In this document: positions 2,751-17,699 of the stretch, piece after piece
Position numbering within the stretch: position 1 is the first letter of the stretch
Layout of the letters: each line of letters starts with the position of its first letter
Source of the DNA: Desulfobacteraceae bacterium
GTDB lineage: Bacteria > Desulfobacterota > Desulfobacteria > Desulfobacterales > Desulfobacteraceae
Reading direction: 5' to 3'
Assembly: GCA_024225895.1 (NCBI GenBank)
Contig: JAAEMC010000267.1
Location: 1-19,947 of the forward strand
Length of the DNA stretch: 19,947 nucleotides
The notes under the pieces: model-generated
Seen by the model: the letters and a program-made list of their open reading frames with translations, nothing else
What the model was told of the DNA's origin: nothing
The model's database searches: none
Made by a program: the position numbers and the translations under genes

Positions 2751-2815
2751 CTATTTAAATTCTTGGATAGAACCGCGCGTAAAATATTCCAAAAATGAAT
2801 GTGGAGCAAAAAACC

Positions 2816-4420
2816 ATGAAGAAACGAACAAGGCCGACAGTGTCCGTTAGCATCCCATTAGTCTTAATGATCATTACTTTCATTTGCAGCCCTGCATTTT
2901 CAGGCACTTACCATGTCTCCACATCCGGGTCCGACCTCACCGGTAACGGGTCATCCGGCAATCCGTGGGCCACCATTACCCATGCGCTGGACAATGTGCC
3001 CGATGACAACAGCACCATTCTTGTTAAACCCGGGACCTATAACGGCAGGGTGAGATTGAGAGGGACTTTTGACAATCATGCTACCGTAAAATCCGAAACC
3101 CCTTATTTGGCCAGGTTGCGGCACACATCTGTTGTGGTCACATGCTATTACGGGCAAGGCATTACCCTTGAAGGATTTGATATTGCACATGCGGGTCCGG
3201 GTGCCGGAGCACTGGTGATACAGATTCAGGATTTGATCGGTGAGCCCGGGGGAGATGATTATGTCAGTGATATTGTTATTAAAAATAATGTCCTGCATGA
3301 CAGCTATAACAACGACATTTTAAAAATCAATAATGGCGCCGGAAATGTAACGGTTTCGGGAAATATGTTTTACAATCAGACAGGAAGTGACGAGCACATC
3401 GATATCAACAGCGCCACAGACGTCATTGTTGAAGATAACTTGTTTTTCAATGATTTTGAAGGCAGCGGCCGGACCAACAACAATGATACATCAAGCTTCA
3501 TTGTCATCAAGGACAGCAATGGGAACTATGATTCAAATCTGGGCAGCCAAAGAATCACTGTCCGCCGGAATATTTTTTTTAACTGGCAAGGTTCTACTGG
3601 TTCCAATTTTGTTTTGATTGGCGAAGACGGCAAAGACTATTACGAAGCCCGGGATGTCCTGGCGGAAAACAACCTGATGCTGGGAAATTCATCCAATGTC
3701 ATGCGCGCTTCCTTTGGGGTTAAAGGAGCTGCAAATATAATTTTCCGCAGCAACACGGTTGTGGGCGATCTGCCCTCACTTGCGTATGCCATGCGCCTGA
3801 ATACGGAAGGAAGCAACCTGCCTTGCGACAATATTTATTTTTATAATAATATCTGGTCTGATCCCACCGGAACCATGGGTGCTGAAAACCCTTCCCGGCC
3901 TGATGATTTTTCAGATACTCCTTCAGGGGAAACCGATTATTTTGAAATCGACAACAACCTGTATTTCAACGGGGCGGACGTCATTCCGGAATCTTCTTCT
4001 GAAATGGTAAACTATACAGATGATGTGTCAGGGGTCATTGCCGACCCGCTTCTTCCCGAAAACAGCAGTCCCGTCATTCCCAGATGGGATGAGGCACAGC
4101 AGATTTTTGCCGACGGCAGCGGGACCATCCGGCAGGTCTTTGAACAGATGGTAGCGCTTTATGCCGTTCCTGCAGACGGCAGTGCGGTTCTGGGCGCAGC
4201 CGATATCTCCAATGCGCCTTTTGACGATATCCTTGGGGATTTACGGCCCACGGGTGATTCGGAATGTGACATGGGGGCCTTTCAAAAGACATCCAGTGAC
4301 ACCCTTGCAGGAGATTTTGACCGGGACGGGGATGTTGATGGATATGATTTGGCTATTTTGTGCGATGATCCCCTTTTGCTGGCGGCTTCAATATTTGCAG
4401 AGAATTTCGGCAGCTTTTAA
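2816..4420 (+). CDS. secreted right-handed parallel beta-helix protein with C-terminal EF-hand/dockerin-like tail
   Basis: A predicted exported protein of 534 residues. Residues 1-29 form a clear signal peptide (MKKRTR, hydrophobic core, SPAFS then G). Residues 30-80 contain the DUF1565-like start of beta-helix proteins (TYHVSTSGSDLTGNGSSGNP, then WATITHAL and LVKPGTY). From about 115 to 390 run repeated strands with Asn ladders such as IVIKNNVLHD, VTVSGNMFYN, VIVEDNLFFN and ITVRRNIFFN, typical of polysaccharide-lyase or adhesin beta-helices. Residues 500-511 (DFDRDGDVDGYD) fit a calcium-binding EF-hand loop, and the tail ends FAENFGSF. Such tails are frequent in deltaproteobacterial secreted proteins. 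The ATG at 2816 is preferred over 2795 because GGAG lies 9 bases upstream and the signal peptide then starts normally. It is preceded by a sigma-54 promoter. A lyase active site could not be identified, so enzymatic function is open. Confidence 0.82.
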   Translation: MKKRTRPTVSVSIPLVLMIITFICSPAFSGTYHVSTSGSDLTGNGSSGNPWATITHALDNVPDDNSTILVKPGTYNGRVRLRGTFDNHATVKSETPYLARLRHTSVVVTCYYGQGITLEGFDIAHAGPGAGALVIQIQDLIGEPGGDDYVSDIVIKNNVLHDSYNNDILKINNGAGNVTVSGNMFYNQTGSDEHIDINSATDVIVEDNLFFNDFEGSGRTNNNDTSSFIVIKDSNGNYDSNLGSQRITVRRNIFFNWQGSTGSNFVLIGEDGKDYYEARDVLAENNLMLGNSSNVMRASFGVKGAANIIFRSNTVVGDLPSLAYAMRLNTEGSNLPCDNIYFYNNIWSDPTGTMGAENPSRPDDFSDTPSGETDYFEIDNNLYFNGADVIPESSSEMVNYTDDVSGVIADPLLPENSSPVIPRWDEAQQIFADGSGTIRQVFEQMVALYAVPADGSAVLGAADISNAPFDDILGDLRPTGDSECDMGAFQKTSSDTLAGDFDRDGDVDGYDLAILCDDPLLLAASIFAENFGSF

Positions 4421-5101: not shown

Positions 5102-5131
5102 TTGACAGATACATTAGTATACTAATATATT
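5102..5131 (+). promoter_or_regulatory. sigma-70 promoter of the GntR regulator and catabolic cluster
   Basis: A perfect TTGACA (5102-5107) is followed after 18 bases by TATATT (5126-5131), five of six to consensus. It is the best promoter-like site found upstream of the regulator and ten-kilobase gene cluster. The predicted leader before the gntR ATG is about 68 bases. Confidence 0.6.
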
Positions 5132-5134
5132 AGT
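5113..5134. promoter_or_regulatory. GntR/FadR-type operator overlapping the promoter spacer
   Basis: ATTAGTATACTAAT (5113-5126) is a perfect 14-bp palindrome with the GT-N2-AC core used by FadR/FCD-type GntR repressors. A further half-site TTAGT lies at 5130-5134. The palindrome fills most of the -35/-10 spacer, so a bound dimer would block RNA polymerase. Autorepression relieved by an inducer is the likely arrangement, by inference. Confidence 0.6.
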
Positions 5135-5205
5135 CCCAAATCAAGGGGGCAACCCACTGACTAAATACGCCTAATAGCTTGAATCTATTAAAAAAGGAAT
5201 CTGTT

Positions 5206-5844
5206 ATGCGAATGCCGCAGCAATCAAATTTTCATCTGTTACGGAGCCAGGTTTATGAATTTTTACGCGAAAGATTGAAAAATCATGATCTGAAACCGGG
5301 TATGTTTGTAACGATCAACCAATTATCCCAGCAGACCGGTATTAATAGAACACCCTTGAGAGATGCACTCTTGCAGCTTCAGGTAGAAGGGTTTGTCACC
5401 TTTTTGCCCCAGCGCGGCATTCAGATCAATGAACTGGTTGAAGAAGATCTTGCAGATATGTACGAGGTTCTTGGCGCACTGGATTCCAGGGCATTGCTTT
5501 CCATATTTGATAAGATTACACCGACTCATATTAAAAAGATGAAGGCCATTAATGAAGAAATGTACCGGTTCACCATTACTGACGAAAACTGGCGCTACTT
5601 TGAACTGAACAATGACTTTCATAATGTCTATTTGAATCTGTCAACCAACACCCTTCTTTTAAAACAGCTCAATATCCTAAAGCAGCGGCTTTTTGATTTC
5701 GGTACCAGGGGTGACTGGATCGAAAAGATAAGGGAGCTTAATTACCAGGAACATATTAAGCTGATCAAACTCATTGAACAAGGCGATGCCAAGAAAGTGG
5801 CTGATTATATACGAGATACCCATTGCTCAATCAATTGGGAGTAG
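5206..5844 (+). CDS. GntR-family regulator, FadR/FCD subfamily
   Basis: A 212-residue DNA-binding regulator. Residues 5-75 form the GntR winged helix-turn-helix: QVYEFLRERLKNHDLKPG, then INQLSQQTGINRTPLRDALL, then LQVEGFVTFLPQRGIQI. Residues 85-208 form an all-helical FCD effector domain. It has the Asp/His pattern of metal-containing FCD domains: NDFHNVYL, QEHIKLIKLIEQGD and RDTH. The ATG at 5206 is chosen because AAAAAGGA ends 7 bases upstream; a TTG at 5179 in the same frame has no comparable site. It heads the transporter and enzyme cluster, with 89 bases to the binding-protein gene, and a matching palindrome lies in its promoter. It is probably an autoregulated repressor that senses the imported substrate or a metabolite. 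Confidence 0.88.
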   Translation: MRMPQQSNFHLLRSQVYEFLRERLKNHDLKPGMFVTINQLSQQTGINRTPLRDALLQLQVEGFVTFLPQRGIQINELVEEDLADMYEVLGALDSRALLSIFDKITPTHIKKMKAINEEMYRFTITDENWRYFELNNDFHNVYLNLSTNTLLLKQLNILKQRLFDFGTRGDWIEKIRELNYQEHIKLIKLIEQGDAKKVADYIRDTHCSINWE

Positions 5845-5933
5845 AGATTATTATTACATACCAGCCAACAGAACATGAAAGGAGGAGAGAATCCGGTAAA
5901 CGTTAATTAATATTAAACAAATAAGGAGGAAAA

Positions 5934-7484
5934 ATGGTACATCGTTTGATTAAATTTATGTTTTTTGCATTCATCCCTTTTTTGCTGGCCGCAAATGTCT
6001 GGGCAGCTGAAAAGAACATGGTCTTTGCCTCACCCTATGGGGTAACCACTTTAGATCCCAGTGTCTCATATTCCACTGAGCTGGGATATATGGCAAATAT
6101 CTATGAAACCTTAATCCGGGTAAATCCGCCGGGAAGCAGCGACCTTTTCAGCTATCTCCTGGCTACGGGCTATAGCGCATCAGCAGACGGCCTTGAGTAT
6201 ACATTTACTCTTAGAAAAGGCGTGAAGTTCCACGACGGTACTAACTTTAATGCCCAGGCAGTAAAATTTTCCATTGAAAGAACAAAAAAGCTTGGCAAAG
6301 GGGCCGGCTTTATCTGGGCGGACCTTAAAGAGATCCAGGTCATTGATGATTATACTGTTAAATTTGTTTTAAATATCCCGGTTCCCCTTCCACAGATCGC
6401 GGCATCTGCCTATGCATCTTATATTATGAGCCCCGGTGTGAAAGACAAGGACTCTGCGTGGTTTAACAAAGGCAATGATGCCGGTACCGGACCATATATG
6501 CTGAAAAACTATAAAGACGGCGAATCCTGGATGTTGGCAAAGTTTGAACAATACTGGGGCGGTTGGGATGGAAAACATGTGGAAAATATCCTTGTAAAAT
6601 ATACCAAAGATCCCTTAACCCAGCTCCAGATGCTCCAGGCTGACCAGGCCATGCTGGTGGGAAGAATCCCTTTGGACAGTTACCCATCTGTTAAAAAAGG
6701 AAAAAATACAAAGGTATTGTATGGACCAAGTTACCAGAATTACATGGCATTTTTCAACACCACACGTCCTCCCTTAGACAATGTGAAAGTGAGAAAAGCC
6801 CTGGCCCACGCAATACCCTATGACGACATCATTACCATAGGATTCAACGGTATGGCAAGCCAGGCAAGGGGACCGGTTCCCCAGGGTCAGTTTGGCGGCA
6901 CCGAAGATGTCATCCAGCATAAATATGACCTGGAACTTGCAAAAAAACTGCTGGCAGAGGCAGGCCACAAAGGCGGCGGTTTTAAGCTGTCCTTGTCATA
7001 TGCAGCGGAAAATGCCCAGGAAGCAAGGTTTGCCCCCCTTATCCAAAGCGAGTTTAAAAAAATTGGTGTGGAGGTCGAGATCAAGGCCCTGGCATGGAAT
7101 ACCCAATGGTCCATGGCTAAAGAAGATCCAAAAAAAGCACAGGATATATTTCTTCTGCTCTGGTGGCCAACCTACAGCGATCCATACGAAACCCTTTTTT
7201 CCCTGCTTCACGATGAAGGAAAGAAGCCTGTCTGGAACCTGGCCTACTATAGAAATGCCGCCTATGATGATATGATCCGAAAAGCCTATGAAACCATTGG
7301 ATCAAATCCTCAAAAGGCTCTACAATTGTATGTGGATGCCCAGAACCTGGTACAAAATGATGTTCCCGTGGCCTGGGTTGTGGATATTGTGGCCAACTGG
7401 CCCATGAATAAAAAATTACAGGGACTGGTCATGAATCCCGCATATCCCAATGTGCCTTTTTTCTATGAGATGCATCTGGAATAA
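5934..7484 (+). CDS. periplasmic binding protein of a dipeptide/oligopeptide-type ABC importer (SBP family 5)
   Basis: A 516-residue exported solute-binding protein of the DppA/OppA type. Residues 1-25 form a signal peptide ending NVWAA before EKNMVF. There is no lipobox cysteine, so it should be free in the periplasm. Typical family segments follow: TTLDPSVSYSTELGYMANIY then ETL, TFTLRKGVKFHDG then NFNAQAVKFSIER, GTGPYMLKNYKDGE, and DNVKVRKALAHAIPYDDI. Length fits the family (500-550). A strong AAGGAGG lies 5-6 bases before the ATG, giving high expected expression. It is the first transporter gene of the cluster, 89 bases after the regulator and separated from the permease by a large hairpin. 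Family 5 proteins bind peptides but also nickel, opines, sugars and other small solutes, so peptide specificity is not assured. Confidence 0.9.
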   Translation: MVHRLIKFMFFAFIPFLLAANVWAAEKNMVFASPYGVTTLDPSVSYSTELGYMANIYETLIRVNPPGSSDLFSYLLATGYSASADGLEYTFTLRKGVKFHDGTNFNAQAVKFSIERTKKLGKGAGFIWADLKEIQVIDDYTVKFVLNIPVPLPQIAASAYASYIMSPGVKDKDSAWFNKGNDAGTGPYMLKNYKDGESWMLAKFEQYWGGWDGKHVENILVKYTKDPLTQLQMLQADQAMLVGRIPLDSYPSVKKGKNTKVLYGPSYQNYMAFFNTTRPPLDNVKVRKALAHAIPYDDIITIGFNGMASQARGPVPQGQFGGTEDVIQHKYDLELAKKLLAEAGHKGGGFKLSLSYAAENAQEARFAPLIQSEFKKIGVEVEIKALAWNTQWSMAKEDPKKAQDIFLLLWWPTYSDPYETLFSLLHDEGKKPVWNLAYYRNAAYDDMIRKAYETIGSNPQKALQLYVDAQNLVQNDVPVAWVVDIVANWPMNKKLQGLVMNPAYPNVPFFYEMHLE

Positions 7485-7502
7485 ATGAATACACAAATCA
7501 AA

Positions 7503-7546
7503 TATCACAGTCTTTTGGGCAGTATTATGCCCGGAAGACCGTGATA
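7503..7546 (+). other. large intercistronic RNA hairpin between binding-protein and permease genes
   Basis: TATCAC (7503-7508), GTCTT (7510-7514) and GGGC (7517-7520) pair with GCCC (7529-7532), AAGAC (7535-7539) and GTGATA (7541-7546). One A-C mismatch occurs, the TT/GG step can pair by wobble, and the loop is AGTATTAT. It is followed by A-rich sequence, not a T tract, so it is not a standard intrinsic terminator. The likely role is 3'-end stabilisation or partial transcription attenuation, which would keep binding-protein mRNA above permease mRNA. Confidence 0.65.
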
Positions 7547-7566
7547 AAAAGGAATTGAATTTTTCC

Positions 7567-8577
7567 ATGCTCTTGTTTCTTTTCAAACGCTTTGCCGGTC
7601 TGATTGCCCTTTTGGTGGTGTTAAGCACACTGGTATTCTTTTTTACACGTTCTTTGCCCGGAGATGTGGCCGCCCTTTATGTTGGTGGAACCGCCAAGGC
7701 CGAAGAGATCGAGCGTGCGAGAGTTGAGCTTGGGCTGGATAAGCCTTTAATCGTACAATACAAATGCTATATACAAAAATTGCTGCAAGGCGATATGGGA
7801 ATCTCATTGCGCACCCACCGCCCGGTAATGCAGGATTTAATGGAAAAAATTCCCATGTCCATGGAACTTGTGTGCTGGGCATTGCTTTTCGCCGCTTCAG
7901 GCGGAGTGCTCTTAGGGGTTACTGCAGCCTATCACCAGGGCAGCCTCTTGGATGAAGTCATTAAATGGTTTACATCTGCTGCCGTGAGTATTCCTATTTT
8001 CTTTTTTGCCCTGCTGCTGCAATTATTTTTTTTCAATGTATTGGGATGGTTTCCCCTCCAGGGACGTTTGGATACCTTTCTAGAATTTTCAAATCCCATT
8101 GAAAATATCACGGGATTCAGCCTGGTGGATACAATTATTACCGGCAATTTTGCTGCCTTTTTTAATGTGGCGTGGCACATGGTCCTTCCTGTGGCAGCAT
8201 TGACCATTGGCCCTTTGGGTATTATTGCCCGGCTGACCCGTTCAGCATTACTGGATGTAATGCAGCAGGATTATATTCTGGCGGCCCGGGCATCGGGCAT
8301 CAGTGAATGGGTACTGTTTTTTTATTATGGACTGCGAAATGCGTTATCCCCTGTTTTAACCGTCATTGGTCTTTCTGTTGCCTTGATTTTGCTGTCCACC
8401 TTTTATGTGGAAATGATCTTTAACTGGCCAGGCATTGGCTATTATGCCCTGGCCGCTATTATGAGTCTGGATTACACTGCGCTTATGGGTGTTTCTCTGA
8501 TGATCGGAACGGTCTATGTGATGGCCAATACATTAATGGATATTGTCCGGCGCATTGTAGATCCGAGGATAAAATAG
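7567..8577 (+). CDS. ABC importer inner-membrane permease, DppB type
   Basis: A 336-residue permease with about six membrane helices. The N-terminus MLLFLFKRFAGLIALLVVLS and the following FFFTRSLPGD are typical of DppB/OppB proteins. The C-terminal half carries the EAA loop that contacts the ATPases (LLDVMQQDYILAARASGISE, then the region ending NALSPVL), followed by FYVEMIFNWPGIGYYALAAI. The ATG at 7567 matches where related proteins begin; a TTG at 7555 lies only 1-2 bases from the GGA and is less likely. The GGA-to-ATG spacing of 13 bases is long, suggesting modest translation. It pairs with the following permease. Confidence 0.88.
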   Translation: MLLFLFKRFAGLIALLVVLSTLVFFFTRSLPGDVAALYVGGTAKAEEIERARVELGLDKPLIVQYKCYIQKLLQGDMGISLRTHRPVMQDLMEKIPMSMELVCWALLFAASGGVLLGVTAAYHQGSLLDEVIKWFTSAAVSIPIFFFALLLQLFFFNVLGWFPLQGRLDTFLEFSNPIENITGFSLVDTIITGNFAAFFNVAWHMVLPVAALTIGPLGIIARLTRSALLDVMQQDYILAARASGISEWVLFFYYGLRNALSPVLTVIGLSVALILLSTFYVEMIFNWPGIGYYALAAIMSLDYTALMGVSLMIGTVYVMANTLMDIVRRIVDPRIK

Positions 8578-8589
8578 GGAAAAGTGTGT

Positions 8590-9498
8590 ATGGAATTACA
8601 AGCAGAATCATATGAGCAAATGGCAAAGCAGGTGGTTAAAGAACACCGGCAGGTCAAGTGGTTCCTTTTGGGGCAGCTGCTAAAACGTAAAGCTGCCATG
8701 CTGTCTTTAATCATATTGGTGCTTACGGTGACGGCAGCCCTGTTTGCGCCCTGGGTAGCGCCGTATCCGGATCAGGGTATGGGGGCGGTCAATATTTCAC
8801 AACGTCTTTCTCCTCCTTCCAATGAGCATCTGCTTGGCACGGACATCTATGGCAGGGATATGCTCAGCCGGGTTATCTGCGGAGCCCGCATCTCTATTTT
8901 CGGCGGGATGTTTATTGTGGTTACGGCCGCCTTCATTGGGGTGCCATTGGGTCTTTGGGCCGGATACAATGAAGGGAAATCCGGGGCAGTGATTATCAAA
9001 GTAGTGGAGCTGTTCTTATCTTTTCCCGCCACCTTGATCGCCATGGCCATCACAATCCTTTTTGGCGCAGGGTGGTCTACTGCCTTGATTGCCCTGGTCA
9101 TTCCCTGGTGGCCCTGGTATACCAGGCTGGTCCAGGGAGAAGTCCTTTCCATTAAACAGATGCTCTATGTCGAGGCGGCCCGGATGCTGGGCTACGGCAA
9201 AATATATATAATTTTTCGTCATCTTCTGCCCAATGTCATTACGCCTGTGATTGTTATGATTCTTTTGGATTTGGGACCGGCCATCATTGCCATCGGGTTG
9301 TTGAGTTTTTTAGGACTTGGCACCCAGCCCCCCATGGCAGACTGGGGCCTGATGGTCTGGGAAGGGGCCCAGAATATTTTAAGCGAATGGTGGATTGCCA
9401 TCGTACCGGGCTGTGCCATGTTTATTGTAGTCACGGCATTTAATATTTTTGGAGATGCACTCAAGGATATTTTAACACCGGGCCGATCTTCCGGATAA
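8590..9498 (+). CDS. ABC importer inner-membrane permease, DppC type
   Basis: A 302-residue second permease. It has a cytoplasmic N-terminal region, a first helix near LSLIILVLTVTAALFAPWVA, and the DppC/OppC hallmark sequence LSPPSNEHLLGTDIYGRDML. The EAA loop is EVLSIKQMLYVEAARMLGYG followed by RHLLPNVITPVIV, then FLGLGTQPPMADWGLM and a last helix before ALKDILTPG. The ATG at 8590 is chosen because AGGGA lies 9 bases upstream; the GTG at 8584 is too close to it. The gene begins 12 bases after the first permease. Together they form the heterodimeric channel. Confidence 0.88.
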   Translation: MELQAESYEQMAKQVVKEHRQVKWFLLGQLLKRKAAMLSLIILVLTVTAALFAPWVAPYPDQGMGAVNISQRLSPPSNEHLLGTDIYGRDMLSRVICGARISIFGGMFIVVTAAFIGVPLGLWAGYNEGKSGAVIIKVVELFLSFPATLIAMAITILFGAGWSTALIALVIPWWPWYTRLVQGEVLSIKQMLYVEAARMLGYGKIYIIFRHLLPNVITPVIVMILLDLGPAIIAIGLLSFLGLGTQPPMADWGLMVWEGAQNILSEWWIAIVPGCAMFIVVTAFNIFGDALKDILTPGRSSG

Positions 9499-9512
9499 TA
9501 CTGAAAGGAAAA

Positions 9513-10565
9513 ATGATCAGGCAAATGGAAAAGACAATTCCCCAAAAAGCAAGACAGAAGACAAAGGCTATTCTGGAAGTCCGGGATTTAAATGTTGCTT
9601 TTAAAACCGCCCGGGGCAAGGCAAAAATTTTGGAAGGGGTGAATTTTGAATTGTTTCCAAAAGAGATTTTGGCCCTTGTGGGTGAAACCGGGTCTGGTAA
9701 AAGTGTTACGGCAAAATCAATTCTGAATCTTTTTGGAAACTATCCCGGACAAATCCAGGGCCAGGTGTGGTTTGATACTCAAGATCTTTTAACCTTGAAA
9801 GATGCACAACTTGAGTCTATCAGGGGCAACCGGATTTCCATGGTATTTCAAAATCCTCAATCCAGTATTAATCCCTTGTTTACTCTTGGAGAGCAGATTT
9901 CAAGGCTGATCCGTCTATACCTTGTCCCTGAAATTAAAATGGCTCGGCAGGAAAACAATCTTACTGAAAAGCAGGCTGTCATTCATATTGCCCGCCAGAA
10001 ATTAAATGAGGTCGGGTTAACCGATATTGACCGGCTTCTCAAGTCCTATGCCGGGGAGATCAGCGGAGGCATGGCCCAGCGGTACCGCATTGCATTAGCC
10101 CTGCTCTCATCTCCTGAGATACTTATTGCAGATGAAGCTACCAGTGCCCTGGATGTTACAGTACAGGCTCATATTTTAAAATTGATGAAAGCCCTGTGCC
10201 AAAAAAAGCAGACAGCCATTTTGTTCATCACCCATGATCTGGGTATTGCCGCCCAGATTTGTGACCGGGTAGCGGTCATGTATGCCGGCAGAATTGTGGA
10301 GGTCGCCAAAACAAAAAGTCTGTTTGAAAATCCGTTGCACCCATACACCAGGGGGCTTTTAAAGGCGGTTCCAAAATTTGGTAAAAAAGAAGATCTCTCT
10401 TTTGTACCGGGTATGATTCCTGATCTTGTTCACCCTCCAAAAGGATGTCGGTTCCATACACGCTGTTCCCAGGCAATGACAATATGCCGGCGGGAAAAAC
10501 CAAGGAGAGTTGCGGCAGAAAGCCGCCATGATGTCTCCTGCTTTTTATATGAGCTTGAAAAATAA
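9513..10565 (+). CDS. ABC importer ATPase, DppD type
   Basis: A 350-residue nucleotide-binding subunit. It has Walker A (GETGSGKS, 57-64), Q-loop (VFQNPQSSINP), signature ISGGMAQR (the SGGM form is normal in D-type subunits), Walker B with catalytic Glu (ILIADEATSALD) and the switch His (FITHDLG). The C-terminal oligo_HPY extension (HPYTRGLLKAVP) ends with four cysteines at 312, 318, 325 and 343. A four-Cys [4Fe-4S] site has been described in a DppD structure, so a cluster is possible. AAAGGA lies 3-4 bases from the ATG. It lies 14 bases after the DppC-type permease and its stop abuts the next ATG. Confidence 0.9.
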   Translation: MIRQMEKTIPQKARQKTKAILEVRDLNVAFKTARGKAKILEGVNFELFPKEILALVGETGSGKSVTAKSILNLFGNYPGQIQGQVWFDTQDLLTLKDAQLESIRGNRISMVFQNPQSSINPLFTLGEQISRLIRLYLVPEIKMARQENNLTEKQAVIHIARQKLNEVGLTDIDRLLKSYAGEISGGMAQRYRIALALLSSPEILIADEATSALDVTVQAHILKLMKALCQKKQTAILFITHDLGIAAQICDRVAVMYAGRIVEVAKTKSLFENPLHPYTRGLLKAVPKFGKKEDLSFVPGMIPDLVHPPKGCRFHTRCSQAMTICRREKPRRVAAESRHDVSCFLYELEK

Positions 10566-11597
10566 ATGACAAATAATAACCATATGAATGAATCCTTAAT
10601 GACGCTTTCAAAGGTGAACACCTGGTTTGCCAATGAGAAAACAATAACAGGCAAGCCGGTTTCCTGGATTAAGGCTGTCAATGATGTGACCCTGAATATC
10701 TACAAAGGAGAAAGCTTAGGCCTTGTGGGAGAATCCGGATGCGGCAAAAGTACCCTGGGAAGAACCATTTTGCGGCTGGTTCCCTTACATTCAGGGGGGA
10801 TTCGGTTCATGGGGGATGATATTGCAAGTTTATACGGCAAAAAATTAAGGCCTTTTCGGTCAAAAATGCAGATGGTTTTCCAGGATCCCAAGGCATCCTT
10901 GAATCCTAAGATGAACATCTTTAAAATTTTGAGCGAGGCATTGTATTTGAATACAGTTCTTGGAAAAAAGGATTTTTTAGAGCAGGGGGTGAAACTTCTC
11001 AACCTTGTAGATTTAAGACCGGAGCACATCTTCAGGTATCCCCATGAGTTTTCCGGCGGCCAGCAGCAGCGGATCAGCATTGCCCGAGCCCTGGCAACTG
11101 ATCCGGATTTTATTGTTTTTGACGAGGCCACCAGCGCCCTGGATGTCTCAGTCCAGGCCCAGGTGATTAATCTGATCCACGAGCTTCGCCGGCAATTGAA
11201 GCTCACTTATCTTTTTATCAGCCATGATTTAAGCATCATGGCCCATGCATGTGACCGGGTGGCGGTTATGTATGCCGGTCAGATCGTGGAGGTGCAAAAA
11301 GCGCAATCATTGTTTTCTGCACCCCGTCATCCCTATACCAGGGCATTGAAAGATGCGGTGCCTGTGGCAGATCCCTCATCAAAAAAGGGGCTTTCGATTC
11401 TTAAGGGAGAAGTTGCCAAGTTGTCTGATCTGCCGTCCGGGTGCTATTTTCATCCCCGGTGTGAATTCAAACAGGATATTTGCAGCAAAGAACCGCCTGA
11501 TGTTTATAAAACAGGCAAGAGAAGCTGGGTAAGGTGTCATTTCCAGGAAGCATTGTGGGAGCAAAGAGAATTAATGGATACGAAGGAGTCAGCATGA
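10566..11597 (+). CDS. ABC importer ATPase, DppF type
   Basis: A 343-residue second nucleotide-binding subunit. It has Walker A GESGCGKST, Q-loop VFQDPKASLNP, signature FSGGQQQRISIARAL, Walker B FIVFDEATSALD and the switch His FISHDLS. The C-terminal HPYTRAL extension carries cysteines at 293, 299, 306 and 324, with the same 6-7-18 spacing as the partner ATPase. The ATG follows the previous stop directly (TAAATG) and no good ribosome binding site precedes it, so translation is probably coupled. Its own end overlaps the next gene by 4 bases (ATGA). It completes a five-subunit importer. Confidence 0.9.
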   Translation: MTNNNHMNESLMTLSKVNTWFANEKTITGKPVSWIKAVNDVTLNIYKGESLGLVGESGCGKSTLGRTILRLVPLHSGGIRFMGDDIASLYGKKLRPFRSKMQMVFQDPKASLNPKMNIFKILSEALYLNTVLGKKDFLEQGVKLLNLVDLRPEHIFRYPHEFSGGQQQRISIARALATDPDFIVFDEATSALDVSVQAQVINLIHELRRQLKLTYLFISHDLSIMAHACDRVAVMYAGQIVEVQKAQSLFSAPRHPYTRALKDAVPVADPSSKKGLSILKGEVAKLSDLPSGCYFHPRCEFKQDICSKEPPDVYKTGKRSWVRCHFQEALWEQRELMDTKESA

Positions 11598-12439
11598 GTC
11601 GTTTATTAGGCATTGGCGTATGCCAGATGGAAGTGGATCCGGATGATATTCAAAAAAATTTGGATAATATTAAAAATCAGGTCCGCCTGATCAAATTTTA
11701 CAGTCCCTGGGTAAAGATGGTGGTGACCCCGGAACTCTGCTTTTACAAGGCAGCGGACATGGAAAAAAGTGCCATGGCCATTCCCAATGAAATCACCGAA
11801 TTTTGTTCGAGCCTGGCCCGTGAGTACCAGATTTTTCTCATTGCAGGGTCTTTGTACGAAAAAGAAGGGCAAAAAATTTATAATTCCACCCCGGTCTTTG
11901 ACGACCAGGGTAATATGTTTGGTGTCTACAGGAAGATGTACCCCTGGCGGCCCCATGAGAAAACGGCTTCCGGTAAAAAACCCCTTGTGTTTGACATTCC
12001 CAGAATCGGCAGGGTCGGCCTTTGTAATTGTTATGATCTGTGGTTTCCAGAGCTTTTAAGAGAGCTTGTATGGCAAGGGGCCCGGATTATTTTTATCCCT
12101 ACGGCCGCAGGTACCCAGGACCGGTCCCAGGAAATTATTTTAAGCCAGGCAGCTGCTATTCAGAACCAGTGTTTTATTGTGGGCGTCAATGGGGTCGGAT
12201 TTGGCGGCAAGGGTCAGAGCATTATTGTTGATCCCCAGGGAAATATCGTCCAGCAGGCCGGGCAGCGCCAGGAAAATCTGATTGCCATGCTGGATTTTGA
12301 TGCGGTCACACAGTCAAGGCAATATGGAATTGCAGGGGTCACCCGGTCTTTGGCTTCATTTTTCCATGAGAAGCACAGGTTCTCCTACCAGAAACAAGCC
12401 TTTGACAAGAGCCCTGTATACCGGGAGAACCAATTGTAA
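11594..12439 (+). CDS. nitrilase-superfamily carbon-nitrogen hydrolase (amidase)
   Basis: A 281-residue cytoplasmic amidohydrolase. The catalytic residues are visible: E47 (VTPELCF), K114 (YRKMYPWRPHE), a second Glu E122, and nucleophile C146 (LCNCYDLWFPEL). The K-to-E spacing of 8 and K-to-C spacing of 32 equal those of aliphatic amidase AmiE (K134, E142, C166), and RK-x-x-PW-x-P-x-E is also amidase-like, but it lacks AmiE's long C-terminus. Family members hydrolyse amides, N-carbamoyl amines or nitriles; an amide is favoured here. The ATG at 11594 has AAGGAG 5 bases upstream and overlaps the previous stop, indicating one transcript. Position before a transaminase suggests that it releases an omega-amino acid and ammonia, as DavA does with 5-aminovaleramide. 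Substrate is inferred. Confidence 0.85.
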   Translation: MSRLLGIGVCQMEVDPDDIQKNLDNIKNQVRLIKFYSPWVKMVVTPELCFYKAADMEKSAMAIPNEITEFCSSLAREYQIFLIAGSLYEKEGQKIYNSTPVFDDQGNMFGVYRKMYPWRPHEKTASGKKPLVFDIPRIGRVGLCNCYDLWFPELLRELVWQGARIIFIPTAAGTQDRSQEIILSQAAAIQNQCFIVGVNGVGFGGKGQSIIVDPQGNIVQQAGQRQENLIAMLDFDAVTQSRQYGIAGVTRSLASFFHEKHRFSYQKQAFDKSPVYRENQL

Positions 12440-12476
12440 CAGATCATACCATTCATGAATAATCTTGGAGAGAAAA

Positions 12477-13790
12477 ATGACGGATAATAAAAAAACAAAA
12501 GAATTAAATGGTCTGCGGGATAAGAATATGGCCAAGGGATTTGCCAGCGCCCGGTCTATCTGTGTCCAAAAGGCAGAAGGTGCAACCATATGGGATATGG
12601 ATGGCAGGGAATATATAGATTTTGCCGGTGGTATTGCCGTGATGAATGTGGGGCATTCCCATCCGGATGTGGTGGCTGCGGTCAAAAATCAGGCAGATAA
12701 ATTCATGCACACCTGTTTTATGGTCCTGCCCTATGAATCCCCAGTCAGGCTGGCTCAAAAACTGAACACCCTGGTACCCGGAGAAAGCCCAAAAAAGACC
12801 ATGTTTGTCAATTCCGGTGCAGAGGCTGTGGAAAATGCTGTGAAAATTGCCAGGTATTATACCAAAAAGACCGGTATTATTGCATTTGAAAATGCATTTC
12901 ATGGCCGGACACTCATGGGCATGAGCCTGACCAGCAAGGTGCAGCCCTACAAACTGGGATTTGGTCCATTTGCTCCTGAAATTTACCGGATCCCTTTTGC
13001 CTATTGTTACCGCTGCTCGTTCGGCAAGGAATATCCTTCCTGCGATATAGCCTGTGCTGATCATCTGGAATCTTTTTTAATCACCCACTGCGCCCCTGAA
13101 ACCACGGCTGCACTTATCGCAGAGCCGGTTCCCGGAGAGGGAGGTTATATGGTGCCTCCGCCGGAATATTTCCCTGAACTCAAAAAGATTTGTGATGCCC
13201 ACGGTATCCTGTTCATTGCAGACGAAATCCAGACCGGCATTGGCCGGACAGGCCCGATGTTTGCCATGGAGCACTGGGGGATTGAAGCAGATATCACCAC
13301 CACTGCCAAGAGTCTTGCCGCTGGTATGCCCTTAAGTGCCGTGGTTGGTAAAAAAAAGATTATGGATTGTGTACACCCCGGTGGTGTGGGCGGTACCTAT
13401 GGCGCCAATCCATTGGCATGTGAAGCAGCTTTAGCTGTACTATCAGTCATTGAAAAGGAAAATTTGCTGAAAAAGGGTAAAGATCTTGGCGAAAAATTGA
13501 GTACTGCCTTGAATGATCTGAAAGATGATTTTAAAATCATCGGGGATGTGAGATGTCTGGGGCCCCTTGCTGCTTTAGAGCTGGTCAAGAATCGGGAAAC
13601 AAAAACCCCGGCACAAGAAGAGACCAAAGCCATAACCGATTATTGTTTTAAAAAGGGCCTGGTTCTGCTTTCCTGCGGGGTTTACGGTAATGTTTTACGG
13701 TTTATGATGCCTTTGGTCACCACAGATCAGCAATTGGAACAAGGGATTAACATCCTGAATAATGCGTTTGAATGGCTTGAAAAAAGGTAG
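12477..13790 (+). CDS. class III PLP-dependent aminotransferase (GABA/omega-amino acid type)
   Basis: A 437-residue fold-type I aminotransferase. It moves the terminal amine of an omega-amino acid to a 2-oxoacid, giving a semialdehyde. PLP residues are present: NSGAEAVENA (112-121), FHGRT (141-145), D249 in FIADEIQTGIGRTG, and Schiff-base lysine K278 in TTAKSLAAGMPLSAVVG. Residues aligned with E. coli GabT specificity positions are kept: I53, E216 and E221 (EPVPGEGG), and the Arg in GNVLRFMMP. An insertion has four cysteines, C177, C180, C189 and C193 (YCYRCSFGKEYPSCDIAC), seen in some GABA aminotransferases and possibly metal- or Fe-S-binding. The ATG at 12477 has GGAG 6 bases upstream. It lies between the amidase and the AOR, which would use its aldehyde product. 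Exact substrate (GABA, 5-aminovalerate, beta-alanine) is unknown. Confidence 0.88.
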   Translation: MTDNKKTKELNGLRDKNMAKGFASARSICVQKAEGATIWDMDGREYIDFAGGIAVMNVGHSHPDVVAAVKNQADKFMHTCFMVLPYESPVRLAQKLNTLVPGESPKKTMFVNSGAEAVENAVKIARYYTKKTGIIAFENAFHGRTLMGMSLTSKVQPYKLGFGPFAPEIYRIPFAYCYRCSFGKEYPSCDIACADHLESFLITHCAPETTAALIAEPVPGEGGYMVPPPEYFPELKKICDAHGILFIADEIQTGIGRTGPMFAMEHWGIEADITTTAKSLAAGMPLSAVVGKKKIMDCVHPGGVGGTYGANPLACEAALAVLSVIEKENLLKKGKDLGEKLSTALNDLKDDFKIIGDVRCLGPLAALELVKNRETKTPAQEETKAITDYCFKKGLVLLSCGVYGNVLRFMMPLVTTDQQLEQGINILNNAFEWLEKR

Positions 13791-13822
13791 CGCCACACTA
13801 AAAGGATCAAGGAGAATGGGTC

Positions 13823-15571
13823 ATGCAGGGATTCTACAACAAAATACTGGTTGTGGATCTGACAGCGCAGCGCTTTCAGGTCCAAACCATTGAGGATGAT
13901 GTCTATGAAAAATATCTTGGCGGTAAAGGCCTTGCCACCTGGCTGCTGAAAGAGCGTAATCCTAAAGGCGTGAACCCGCTGGCAGCAGAAAATAATCTGA
14001 TTTTTGCCACAGGGCCTTTAACCGGCGGCATGTCCTGGGGGGCCTCCCGGTATGGCGTCTTCACCAAATCTCCTTTGACCGGGCTTTATGCCGAGTCATA
14101 TTCCGGGGGGCGGGTGCCAGAAGCTGTCAGTGCCACAGGCTTTGATGCCATTGTTCTCCATGGAAGGGCTCAAAATTTGTCTGTTTTGCAGATTACTCCC
14201 GATCAAACCGTGTTCCACGATGCCGAAGACCTGAAAGGCAAAGACACATTTGAAACGGAAAAGGCGGTAAAGGAGAAGTATTGTCTTAAAAAAGATAAAG
14301 GATGGAAAAACGGTGTTGCCGTTGTAGGGCCTGCCGCAGAGAACGGTGTCCGGTTCTCTATCATCAAAAATGATGGCTGGCGATGTGCCGGAAGGGCGGG
14401 AACCGGATCGGTCATGGGATCGAAGAATTTAAAAGCTATTGTTTTTTCAGGTGATATAAAAAGAACTTCCCATGATCCTGATGCCTTAAAGCAATTGTCC
14501 AGGGAAATGGCCAGAGAATCCAAAGACCATCCGGCTGCCCATGCCTATAAATCCATGGGCACCTCCCAAATGGTGAAAATTATGAATTCCGCGGGGGCTT
14601 TTCCTGCAAAATACTGGTCCATGGGTAAAGCGCCTCATTGGGAAAATATCAGTGCCGACGCCCTGCATAACCAATGCGATGTGACCCCACATGCATGTGC
14701 CAAATGCTATCTTGCCTGCGGCAGGATGACAAAGGTCTTAAAAGGTCGCCATAAAGAGATGATCCTGGAAGGCCCGGAGTATGAAACCATCTATACATTC
14801 GGCGGCCTCTGCATGGTGGATGCCATAGAAGAAATAGTTTATTTAAATCATGTTTGCGACAGCCTCGGTATGGATACAATTACCGCCGGAAATCTTTGCG
14901 CCTTTGCCATGGCTGCGTTTGAAAAGGGGAAATCCGATTACGAAATTCTTTTTGGCGATACCGACGGCATTGCAAAACTTTTGAACTTTATCTGTCAACA
15001 GAAAGATATTGGCGAGCTTTTATCAAAGGGCATCATCGAGGCTGCCAAGGCCTGGGGCATGGAAGATGATGCCGTTCATGTCAAAGGCATGGAACCGGCA
15101 GGATACGATCCCAGGGTTTTAAAAGGTATGGGTTTGGGATATGCCACCTCAGACCGGGGTGCCTGCCATCTGAGGGCTACTTTTTATAAGCCGGAGCTTG
15201 CCGGCATTATTGATCCAGATCAAATAGGGGGCAAAGCCAAAGTTTTTATCGATTTTGAGGACCGCCTGACTCTTTTTGATAGTCTGATCCTATGTAAATT
15301 CTACCGAGATCTCTATCCATGGGAACTTTTAGAAACACTGATATCCGGTGCCACCGGCATGGACGGCTCCAAAGAAAATCTGGCGAAAATTGCCTGGCGC
15401 ATTTCGTCAATGGTCAGGCAATTCAATATTGCAGAAGGCATGACGATCCGGCATGAAGCATTGCCAAAACCTTTCTATCAGCCTTTGGCAGATTCCGGGG
15501 CCGTGATTACAAAAAAAGAGATGAATACCCTTAAAAAAGAATATTTTGAATTGCGTAATTGGGGGGAGTGA
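13823..15571 (+). CDS. tungsten-type aldehyde:ferredoxin oxidoreductase (AOR)
   Basis: A 582-residue oxidoreductase, close to the 605 of Pyrococcus furiosus AOR. It oxidises aldehydes to carboxylic acids, passing electrons to ferredoxin through a tungsten-bispterin and one [4Fe-4S] cluster. The N-terminal domain has the family pattern YLGGKGLATWLL, then FATGPLTGG and SYSGGRVPEAVSATGFDAIV. Cluster cysteines are C292, C295, C299 and C491 (C288, C291, C295 and C494 in P. furiosus). The two pterin-binding DxxGxx-type motifs are DSLGMD (346-351) and DSLILC (486-491). RBS AAGGAG lies 8 bases before the ATG and the aminotransferase stop is 32 bases upstream, so it is in the same operon. No dedicated ferredoxin or pterin gene is visible. 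Context suggests oxidation of the semialdehyde made by the transaminase; reduction of an acid is the reverse possibility. Confidence 0.92.
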   Translation: MQGFYNKILVVDLTAQRFQVQTIEDDVYEKYLGGKGLATWLLKERNPKGVNPLAAENNLIFATGPLTGGMSWGASRYGVFTKSPLTGLYAESYSGGRVPEAVSATGFDAIVLHGRAQNLSVLQITPDQTVFHDAEDLKGKDTFETEKAVKEKYCLKKDKGWKNGVAVVGPAAENGVRFSIIKNDGWRCAGRAGTGSVMGSKNLKAIVFSGDIKRTSHDPDALKQLSREMARESKDHPAAHAYKSMGTSQMVKIMNSAGAFPAKYWSMGKAPHWENISADALHNQCDVTPHACAKCYLACGRMTKVLKGRHKEMILEGPEYETIYTFGGLCMVDAIEEIVYLNHVCDSLGMDTITAGNLCAFAMAAFEKGKSDYEILFGDTDGIAKLLNFICQQKDIGELLSKGIIEAAKAWGMEDDAVHVKGMEPAGYDPRVLKGMGLGYATSDRGACHLRATFYKPELAGIIDPDQIGGKAKVFIDFEDRLTLFDSLILCKFYRDLYPWELLETLISGATGMDGSKENLAKIAWRISSMVRQFNIAEGMTIRHEALPKPFYQPLADSGAVITKKEMNTLKKEYFELRNWGE

Positions 15572-15716: not shown

Positions 15717-17240
15717 CTATTGGGTGACGGTGAAAGATCCGGCACTGCTCCAGGAACCGCTGCCGTACTCGCTCCAGGGAAGAACATACCATTCATAGGA
15801 GTTTGATTCCAGCGAAGCACTGATGGTAATTGAACACTGTCCGCCGGTGCAGGTGATTTCAGGATAATTGGCATAGTTGTCCGCAATTTCATACCACTGG
15901 ACGAACTTGTAGCTCTTATCAAGGCTTTGCAGGTAAAGTTTATACCATGAGGCATTGGCGTCCTCGGTCCAGACAAAGGTGGTGGTGCCTGACTGTGTGG
16001 TACCGGAAGGCGATACCAGTGTGACCTGGGAAGGTGTATTCCCTGTGCTTGAAACTGAGAAGCTGACGCTGCTGCTCCAGGTGCTGCCGTAATCATTCCA
16101 GGATTTGAGATATCCTTCATAGCTGCCTTCTGCCAGGATAGTGTCAGGGGTCACTGTACAGGCATCATCCGAGCAGATCAGGGAAGCATCGTACCAGGTG
16201 TCAATTTTGTTAACCTTGTTGCTGTTCCAGACAAAGAGCTTGTACCAGGTGACGCCTTCAACCGCATTCCAGTTATAGGCAGGAGTGGCATCCGAGACAC
16301 TGCCGCTGGGCGATGTCAGGGTTGCAGCAGACGGAGCGGCAGGGTTGGAAATTTCGGTGTTTTCTTCTATCCAGTCGGTATAATTCATCACTTTTGCATA
16401 AACACCGGGCGAACCTGCCTGGGCGCATCCGTCGCCAAAAGAGGTGATGCCGGCCAAAAGCCAGCCGTCATCGCTCGCATTTCGCACTACCATAGGGCCG
16501 CCGGAATCGCCCTGGCAGGAGTCAATGCCCCCTTCTTTTTTACCCGCAATAATCATGTTGTCTGTAAAATCGCTTCCGTAAACGCTTTGCCCATATGCAG
16601 CCGAGAAAATGGTAATCTCGGCTTCCATCAGATCTTCCGGGTAAACATCATCTGTGGTGGAGGTGTTTCCCCAGCCGATGATGGTGGCTGAACTTCCGTC
16701 AGCAGTCAGGGATTCATTTGCAGAATAGAGAATTCCGGTGGTTTGCTGGCTGGATGATAGTTTTAAGTGAAGCAGGGCTATATCGTTATCGCTATCATCA
16801 TTTGAGCTTGTCCCCAGATAATTGGGGTGCCGGATGAGCCGGTCCACTTCGATCCTTTCTCCGCCCGAGGTAGTCAGATCATTGACTCCCAGTACCACGT
16901 CAATCTCGGATGCCGTCAGATCGATCAAACAATGGGCAGCAGTCACCACCCACTCAGAATCGATCAAGGTACCGCCACAGAATTGTCCATCATAGGCATC
17001 TTCCCCACGGGTAACCAGGGCTGCAATCCAAGGCCATGCATTGTCGGAAGATACGGTACCCCCTATTATTCTGGGGGTCTTTTCAGTATCCGGGGATGCT
17101 GCCTGAACTTCTTTTTGAACCGGAATAGAATTGTCGGCCAGGACATCTGCAGGAATGGTGAAGGCGGTAAACAGCAAGAGAATAAATGTGAAAGACGTCA
17201 ATAAGTTAAAAACGCTGCAGAATCTTAATTTTTCTTTCAT
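15717..17240 (-). CDS. secreted trypsin-like serine protease (S1) with two C-terminal repeats
   Basis: A 507-residue exported S1 endopeptidase. A signal peptide (about residues 1-35, ending DVLA before DNS) is followed by a short propeptide and an activation site PR-IIGG near residue 57. The catalytic triad is complete: H103 (TAAHC), D153 (NDIALLHL) and S246 (SCQGDSGGP). Asp six residues before the Ser predicts trypsin-like cleavage after Lys/Arg. From about 300 come two repeats of roughly 100 residues sharing L-x-SPSG, an aromatic W, WYKL(F/Y), a C-x4-C pair, W-x-x-YGS and SFxV. The start at 17240 is preferred because GGAG lies 6 bases upstream; the ATG at 17243 leaves only 3. It is convergent with the AOR gene and unlinked to it in function. 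The target is unknown; extracellular protein digestion or processing is likely. Confidence 0.9.
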   Translation of the reverse strand: MKEKLRFCSVFNLLTSFTFILLLFTAFTIPADVLADNSIPVQKEVQAASPDTEKTPRIIGGTVSSDNAWPWIAALVTRGEDAYDGQFCGGTLIDSEWVVTAAHCLIDLTASEIDVVLGVNDLTTSGGERIEVDRLIRHPNYLGTSSNDDSDNDIALLHLKLSSSQQTTGILYSANESLTADGSSATIIGWGNTSTTDDVYPEDLMEAEITIFSAAYGQSVYGSDFTDNMIIAGKKEGGIDSCQGDSGGPMVVRNASDDGWLLAGITSFGDGCAQAGSPGVYAKVMNYTDWIEENTEISNPAAPSAATLTSPSGSVSDATPAYNWNAVEGVTWYKLFVWNSNKVNKIDTWYDASLICSDDACTVTPDTILAEGSYEGYLKSWNDYGSTWSSSVSFSVSSTGNTPSQVTLVSPSGTTQSGTTTFVWTEDANASWYKLYLQSLDKSYKFVQWYEIADNYANYPEITCTGGQCSITISASLESNSYEWYVLPWSEYGSGSWSSAGSFTVTQ

Positions 17241-17699
17241 CATAAGCTCCTTTATTTTTGTAGTGCCAGTCTGGCTTGATGATTATCTGTGTTAAACAGA
17301 CTCAACTGATTGTAAATTGAAAAGAGTCTAATAATTAATTAGGAATTTATAATATATTATATATTTATCGTATACAATGCAACCTAAATCAGGGACTTTG
17401 TTTGGAAGCAATGGTTTTTAAAATTTGGCAAAAAAATTTGCAATATTAGCATGTTACAATTTCTAATAAGAATATATTAAAAGTTAAAAAAATGAGGTAT
17501 GCACAAGATAATTTTTTTTACAAAAAAGCAATTAAATAATAAGAAATAAGCAAATCACACTTGGCTTTGATGTGTGTGGCGCCTTAATGGTGGATCAGGG
17601 ATGAAATTTTGGATACCATTGACTAAGAATGCATACATTTGTATAATTTATCAACAACGTTCCTCATTATTCTAATTACATAATTTTTTGGAGGTCTTT
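17241..17699. other. long AT-rich divergent intergenic region
   Basis: About 460 bases separate the protease from the family 3 binding protein and I see no gene in it. It is very AT-rich, with a run of alternating A/T at 17350-17370 that would suit a protease promoter on the minus strand (several overlapping -10-like hexamers, none with a good -35). AGACTC (17298-17303) and GAGTCT (17324-17329) form an inverted repeat. CACAC and GTGTG flank TTGGCTTTGAT near 17557-17577. The only well-supported promoter is at 17619-17647. Confidence 0.4.
17619..17647 (+). promoter_or_regulatory. near-consensus sigma-70 promoter for the family 3 binding protein
   Basis: TTGACT (17619-17624), a spacer of exactly 17 bases, and a perfect TATAAT (17642-17647). 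Transcription would begin near 17654, about 46 bases before the ATG. This is the strongest sigma-70 match noticed in the window. Confidence 0.65.

Follow-up and report, generated by a model that had tools for sequence, protein, structure and literature searches.

A 19,947-nucleotide stretch of DNA from a Desulfobacteraceae bacterium (contig JAAEMC010000267.1; the whole stretch is referred to here as the window) carries an operon that probably imports a small amide, or an amide-bearing compound, and oxidises it anaerobically through an amidase, a transaminase and an aldehyde:ferredoxin oxidoreductase (AOR) that would reduce ferredoxin. We found that the last two genes of the operon, encoding a class III aminotransferase (AMT) and the AOR, are a pair that is, by gene order, widely conserved in the family and in some relatives in the phylum, and that the importer and amidase genes are one of several exchangeable front ends of this pair. 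The recurrent logic is a transaminase followed by an AOR, while the importer, the unmasking enzyme and the activation of the acid are swapped; the window holds the amide-fed version. An original prediction for this stretch had described a co-directional regulator, five-subunit importer, amidase, class III aminotransferase and AOR as a candidate catabolic operon whose enzymes act in a chain. All of these genes were confirmed on the plus strand in that order (GntR/FCD regulator, five-gene Opp/Dpp-type importer, amidase, AMT and AOR), with intergenic gaps of at most 89 bp (89, 82, 6, 14, 0, -4, 37 and 32 bp, using the ATG starts at 5206, 7567, 11594 and 12477). The chain is supported and a single unit is likely, and the idea of the operon is refined to that of a conserved pair behind one of its front ends.

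The AMT (12477..13790, plus strand) is an Aminotran_3 protein of the γ-aminobutyrate (GABA) transaminase type. It scores 546.9 bits against the curated GABA transaminase model TIGR00700 (cut-off 506.65 bits), and its closest solved relative is Escherichia coli GabT (1SF2). The AOR (13823..15571, plus strand) is a single-subunit protein with AFOR_N (PF02730, 4.4e-67) and AFOR_C (PF01314, 4.4e-107) domains; its closest solved relatives are Pyrococcus furiosus AOR 1AOR (321 bits) and 9MQX (320 bits), and the formaldehyde:ferredoxin oxidoreductase (FOR) of P. furiosus (1B25) scores 250 bits. Among 64 aligned AORs, T247, E321, Y428 and H449 are invariant, C292, C299 and C491 occur in all 64 and C295 in 63; we take these four cysteines to be the iron–sulfur cysteines. 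The protein thus has both domains, the cysteines and the second-shell Thr, Glu, Tyr and His that define the AOR superfamily, and the position matching P. furiosus Y452 is a Thr in all 64. Residues were assigned by alignment to 1AOR and by the P. furiosus AOR numbering in the excerpted text of PMC12096430. The operon encodes only this single AOR subunit, with a putative tungsten cofactor and a putative ferredoxin acceptor. The window genome (G000) contains eight AFOR_N matches, and an AMT of the window type was not seen in the stretches around the other seven.

To place the pair in its family, we counted its occurrence in 86 genomes. The AMT gene lies directly upstream of a related AOR gene, on the same strand and with a gap below 300 bp, in 25 of the 86 (24 of 85 without the window), and seven further same-strand pairs are 0.5-6.5 kb apart. 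Related AORs number 63 in 52 genomes (E <= 1e-150) and related AMTs 61 in 48 genomes (E <= 1e-130), with both present in 39. Under random placement, a crude model that ignores shared ancestry, adjacency would be expected in ~0.02 genomes, against the 25 found. Of 297 genomes sampled across the phylum, counting that of the window, at least 38 have the AMT and at least 63 the AOR (E <= 1e-130); the scan scored the best 4-5 candidates per genome, and the counts may be low. Besides the window, directly adjacent pairs were recognised by eye in four genomes of this sample (G310, G289, G120 and G330). Ten further cases with both genes on one contig were examined, among them G241, where the genes are on opposite strands, and several further genomes have single-strand runs in which an importer stands between AMT and AOR.

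The genes that accompany the pair differ from locus to locus; representatives were typed with Pfam or NCBIfam, and the remaining genes by BLAST against them. Some pairs are found with a TRAP importer, a CoA-transferase pair and a sigma-54 regulator (for example L157, L164 and L167; DctP was recognised from its Pfam match, DctQ and DctM from their position and size), and others enclose a LIV-type importer (L137, L138, L199, L200 and L205). A family 3 importer with an octopine/nopaline dehydrogenase (L144), an M20 deacylase with a TctA transporter (L160) and MttB-type methyltransferases (L175 and L176) also occur. At L173, and similarly at L204, a lactamase-like set of LamB/YcsF, carboxyltransferase and biotin carboxylase genes stands with AMT and AOR, and these sets are a candidate operon for anaerobic lactam degradation. 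Glutamate dehydrogenase-type genes lie in or beside the runs at L168, L169 and L201. The run at L198 and L201 comprises a sigma-54 regulator, AMT, LIV-type importer, AOR, GctA-like and GctB-like genes (L202 is similar), and at L201 it continues with a glutamate dehydrogenase-like protein. Among the 25 adjacent family pairs, 11 have a GctA-like gene within the stretch covered, several of the other stretches being short contigs. Three CoA-transferase proteins were tested, and each had glutaconate CoA-transferase (1POI, A or B) as its best PDB match, with 226 and 216 bits for the L164 proteins and 236 bits for the L201 A subunit.

A tree of 64 AORs, whose rows came from chosen loci and partly for nearness to an AMT, divides into two big groups, of 31 and 32 members, with L175 outside both; the forks of these groups have support of 81 and 92, under the 95 mark. 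Every one of the 12 adjacent pairs with GctA falls in the group of 31, whose members are all AMT-linked once L201 and L202 are counted as such. Scored as the label 'none', the absence of a linked AMT requires 8 changes across this tree, against a shuffled mean of 17.6; this label was also given to L201 and L202, each of which has an AMT upstream in the same orientation, with antisense open reading frames (ORFs) between.

AMT-AOR pairs with GctA point to a route from 5-aminovalerate through glutarate semialdehyde and glutarate to glutaryl-CoA. Because these glutaconate-CoA-transferase-like genes lie near sister AMT-AOR modules, a C5 skeleton (5-aminovalerate to glutarate) appears the most likely, followed by GABA to succinate. 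This argument is drawn mainly from the sister AOR group, since all 12 GctA pairs lie there, and for the window the case for C5 is indirect: its AOR falls in the group of 32, and a CoA-transferase is absent from the operon. Relatives of glutaconate CoA-transferase lie near many AMT-AOR pairs, whereas in the window genome the GctA-like gene is elsewhere. The FOR of P. furiosus, which was crystallised with glutarate, is a proposed oxidiser of glutaric semialdehyde according to the excerpted text of PMC12096430. Together with GctAB, this proposed role lends the glutaryl route indirect support. FOR shares with the window AOR its superfamily and the proposed kind of substrate (PMC12096430, excerpt), but the window AOR is nearer to 1AOR than to FOR. 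A C4 version, in which the amidase product would be GABA (from 4-aminobutyramide or a similar compound) and the AOR would form succinate, is suggested by the AMT passing the GABA transaminase equivalog and by a Paraglaciecola locus (L049), where the neighbours of a distant amidase include an AMT of the GABA-transaminase type, an aldehyde dehydrogenase and a regulator with GntR and aminotransferase domains. GABA transaminases, however, often accept 5-aminovalerate too, and with the transferase-like genes of the sister modules pointing to C5 we regard the C4 version as a plausible but rather improbable alternative. Of the substrates named in the original prediction, one of the '5-aminovaler-' kind is sensible because contexts elsewhere favour a C5 product; 5-aminovaleramide itself is no more than a candidate.

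The amidase (11594..12439, plus strand), a nitrilase-superfamily CN_hydrolase protein (PF00795, 9.2e-40), would supply the AMT with its substrate. Residues E47, K114, E122 and C146, which by analogy with the nitrilase superfamily we take to have the catalytic roles, are invariant in 25 of 25 aligned sequences, and the region around K114-E122 (PW-x-P-x-E) aligns with that of the aliphatic amidase 2UXY. The protein reaches no NCBIfam cut-off. Its best NCBIfam match is the N-carbamoylputrescine amidase AguB (TIGR03381), yet it scores 89.2 bits there against a cut-off of 410.25, and it likewise falls short of the aliphatic amidase and formamidase models PRK13286 and PRK13287 (85.4 and 84.6 bits; cut-offs 427 and 406). 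N-carbamoylputrescine hydrolysis was therefore rejected as first choice on the AguB score and the 2UXY alignment, and N-carbamoyl amines, which the original prediction had offered as substrates, are less likely, even though AguB is the best match.

The importer genes, all on the plus strand, encode a family 5 solute-binding protein (SBP_bac_5, 5934..7484; PF00496, 2.3e-89; no NCBIfam cut-off reached), a DppB-type permease (7567..8577; PF00528/PF19300; first in-frame ATG at 7567, listed ORF from the TTG at 7555), a DppC-type permease with a GTG start (8584..9498; PF00528/PF12911) and the DppD- and DppF-type ATPases (9513..10565 and 10566..11597; both PF00005/PF08352). All five have the general Pfam domains of Opp/Dpp-type systems. 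They stay below the cut-off of a named Opp, Dpp or Nik equivalog in every NCBIfam match listed, which for the ATPases means the best 25 of 184 and the best 25 of 189 matches, and on these listed matches nickel or named-peptide import was rejected.

To follow the amidase through other genomes, we scanned a one-genome-per-species collection (84,980 genomes), which gave 182 relatives, and used the best 80 loci. Fourteen close loci (L001-L013 and L032; at least 53% identity) come from records titled Desulfo- groups or Deltaproteobacteria. Recognisable importer genes adjoin the amidase in 12 of them, with fragments only in L012 and none in L007; in L011 the importer lacks ATPase genes, and importer and amidase are incomplete. 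The contig of L001 ends 77 bp past the amidase and agrees with G052:C108 in length and in where the amidase lies. In G052 an AMT matching the window subtype begins a separate contig (L207), and we infer that the two contigs are one cluster. The conservation in related genomes that the original prediction had called for was seen, as amidase, AMT and an intact AOR recur together in L003, L004 and L006. Across the family, the amidase and the window AMT subtype (at least 75% identity) each occur in 6 of 86 genomes, window included, and share 5 (hypergeometric 1e-6); without the window the figures are 5 and 5 of 85 with 4 shared (1.2e-5), both values ignoring ancestry. At the 66 distant loci (34-44% identity), a class III AMT was present anywhere in 36 and, in the same orientation as the amidase and no more than 5 kb from it, in 29, including loci of Asgard archaea, Planctomycetota, Alteromonadales and Anaerolineae.

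Several findings weigh against the proposed reading. The AMT lies directly downstream of the amidase in only five of the 14 close loci (L003, L004, L006, L009 and L011) and was not found downstream in eight (over 0.7 kb in L002, 1.2 kb in L010 and up to ~10 kb), and the importer-amidase unit also exists without AMT and AOR. The AOR is intact in only four of the seven amidase-AMT clusters (the window, L003, L004 and L006); only fragments of it are left in L009, it is disrupted in L011 and it was not found in the 3.2 kb after the AMT in L207. An AOR-like gene appears in only one of the 66 distant loci (L020, 33%, 6.3 kb away). The window AOR sits in the mixed group of 32, where 12 members are AMT-linked and 20 are not, and the GctA-linked adjacent pairs all fall outside this group; among the 20, L186 has a GctA-like gene and an AMT nearby, the AMT on the other strand. 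The GctA-like gene of the window genome lies on another contig with a TRAP-type importer. A profile search of this genome (81% complete) for RnfC, a family that matches 12 of 14 controls and exceeds the cut-off in 4, returned 8 matches, none over the cut-off. A search for OAD_beta, which is not specific for glutaconyl-CoA decarboxylase, matched a single contig in two pieces, with two stops in the second piece.

The importer and amidase could instead be a functional unit that frees ammonia from small amides, with AMT and AOR as co-transcribed cargo in a few lineages. Such nitrogen scavenging would suit the loci where importer and amidase occur without an AMT (L005, L008, L013 and L032) or in the order GntR-amidase-importer, again without it (L033 and L038), as well as an amidase relative, P0120, for which an ABC_tran and a CN_hydrolase domain are both listed. 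We consider it unlikely, however, since the amidase and the matching AMT subtype co-occur and amidase-AMT neighbourhoods recur across distant phyla.

Other features were noted at the amidase loci. At L005 the first importer-amidase set is followed, within one contig, by a second GntR-importer set. Families among the neighbours at distant loci, typed on representatives, include aldehyde dehydrogenase, M28 and M20 peptidases, an Orn/Lys/Arg-decarboxylase-like protein and an ATP-grasp-type protein. At L031, L040, L044, L045, L059, L061, L065 and L076 the amidase lies near a cluster of 916-973 aa proteins, whose member in L059 is Orn/Lys/Arg-decarboxylase-like, and each locus has a class III AMT, possibly indicating a decarboxylase-amidase-transaminase route. 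Two protein clusters occur just upstream of the distant amidase at L063, L066-L069, L073-L075 and L077 (mostly Rhodobacteraceae by title); their representatives, in L059 and L031, are a PRK06524 'biotin carboxylase' match and a C45-type autoproteolytic hydrolase. At the Asgard loci L015-L017, L019, L020, L022-L024 and L028, genes for AMT, amidase and M28-/M20-type peptidase clusters are close together, families having been run on L019 only.

The operon opens with the GntR/FCD regulator (5206..5844, plus strand; PF00392, 1.6e-13; PF07729, 1.6e-13; the scanned ORF starts at the TTG at 5179). Upstream of it lies a sigma-70-like promoter, TTGACA-18-TATATT (5102..5131, plus strand), which is a consensus match only (11/12). 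It is the top match between 4900 and 15800, where the scan overall was near chance (24 matches; shuffled mean 18.3). Within this promoter, at 5113..5134 and with no strand assigned, are the overlapping palindromes ATTAGTATACTAAT and ACTAATATATTAGT, which by their conservation upstream of GntR genes are a probable GntR operator. The stretch is identical upstream of the homologous GntR gene in L009, and related forms precede GntR in L004, L005, L008, L010 and L006, although in the L006 region a palindrome search allowing three mismatches was at chance level. The palindrome was not seen upstream of GntR in L033, and L038 offers only 41 bp there. The sequence TTAGTATACTAA has one exact copy in the window; with up to two mismatches 2 were found against 0.47 expected, a number reached by 18 of 200 shuffles. 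Because of the short gaps, the overlap of the amidase start with the ATPase stop (ATGA) and one strong promoter with an operator, a regulated single transcription unit is likely. The gene after the AOR is convergent with the operon (15717-17243, minus strand) and encodes a serine protease of the trypsin family (508 aa; PF00089, 9.9e-57). A 541 aa ORF at 2795-4420 (plus strand) had no Pfam match at E 0.001. The source bacterium is related to sulfate reducers such as Desulfobacula.

For the window, the regulation, all substrates, the ferredoxin acceptor and the direction of the reactions are taken to be as follows. GntR would repress the promoter through the palindromic operator until substrate is present, and the Dpp-type importer, judging from its family, would then take up the compound. 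The amidase, by its family and catalytic residues, would free ammonia from a terminal carboxamide to leave an omega-amino acid, whose amino group the GABA-transaminase-type AMT, having passed the curated cut-off, would transfer to 2-oxoglutarate to give an acid semialdehyde. The tungsten-type AOR, with its catalytic and cysteine residues intact, would oxidise the semialdehyde to a dicarboxylate and reduce ferredoxin. AORs are often broad in substrate and a detoxification role has been suggested (PMC12096430, excerpt), which would suit an AOR running in reverse or removing aldehyde for a transaminase used in synthesis. We think this very unlikely, as the recurrent AMT-first order with an importer, and elsewhere with CoA-transferase and glutamate dehydrogenase, suits catabolism.

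The proposed oxidation of an amide resembles known systems. The Dav (delta-aminovalerate) branch of lysine degradation (DavA-DavT-DavD) likewise places a class III transaminase for an omega-amino acid after a nitrilase-superfamily amidase, but the window uses an AOR at the last step and has a dedicated importer. A plain Dav pathway was rejected because no DavB- or DavD-type gene is present among the 17 window ORFs scanned. For lysine monooxygenase DavB, no flavin amine oxidase-type Pfam match was found in these ORFs, the rest of the genome not having been searched; for the NAD(P)-dependent semialdehyde dehydrogenase DavD, no Aldedh match was found in them, in agreement with the earlier view that an AOR takes its place. 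The GABA shunt (GabT-GabD) shares the GabT-type aminotransferase, whereas the window has an AOR instead of GabD, plus amidase and importer. We regard the module as omega-amino acid catabolism of the Dav/GABA type with an AOR.

Anoxic sediments and guts are rich in 5-aminovalerate and GABA. Proline fermentation yields 5-aminovalerate as an end product (PMC8473912 and PMC6615313, excerpts), and Clostridium viride takes it via 5-hydroxyvalerate to valerate, unlike the route proposed here (PMC8473912, excerpt). No title found within the open-licence literature, as far as it was covered, describes an AMT-AOR module. With slightly less than even confidence, we suggest that the Desulfobacterota may have a widespread, modular, ferredoxin-reducing oxidation of omega-amino acids, in which a transaminase and a tungsten AOR, often with a glutaconate-type CoA-transferase and sometimes with glutamate dehydrogenase, would convert 5-aminovalerate or GABA to glutaryl-CoA or succinate behind exchangeable front ends that handle amides, lactams, opines and N-methylated or N-acyl derivatives. 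The gene pair gives concrete, testable predictions for cultured Desulfobacterota. If true, the transaminase-AOR route would save semialdehyde oxidation as low-potential electrons rather than NADH, and would supply a physiological substrate for AORs, whose roles are often unclear (PMC12096430, excerpt).

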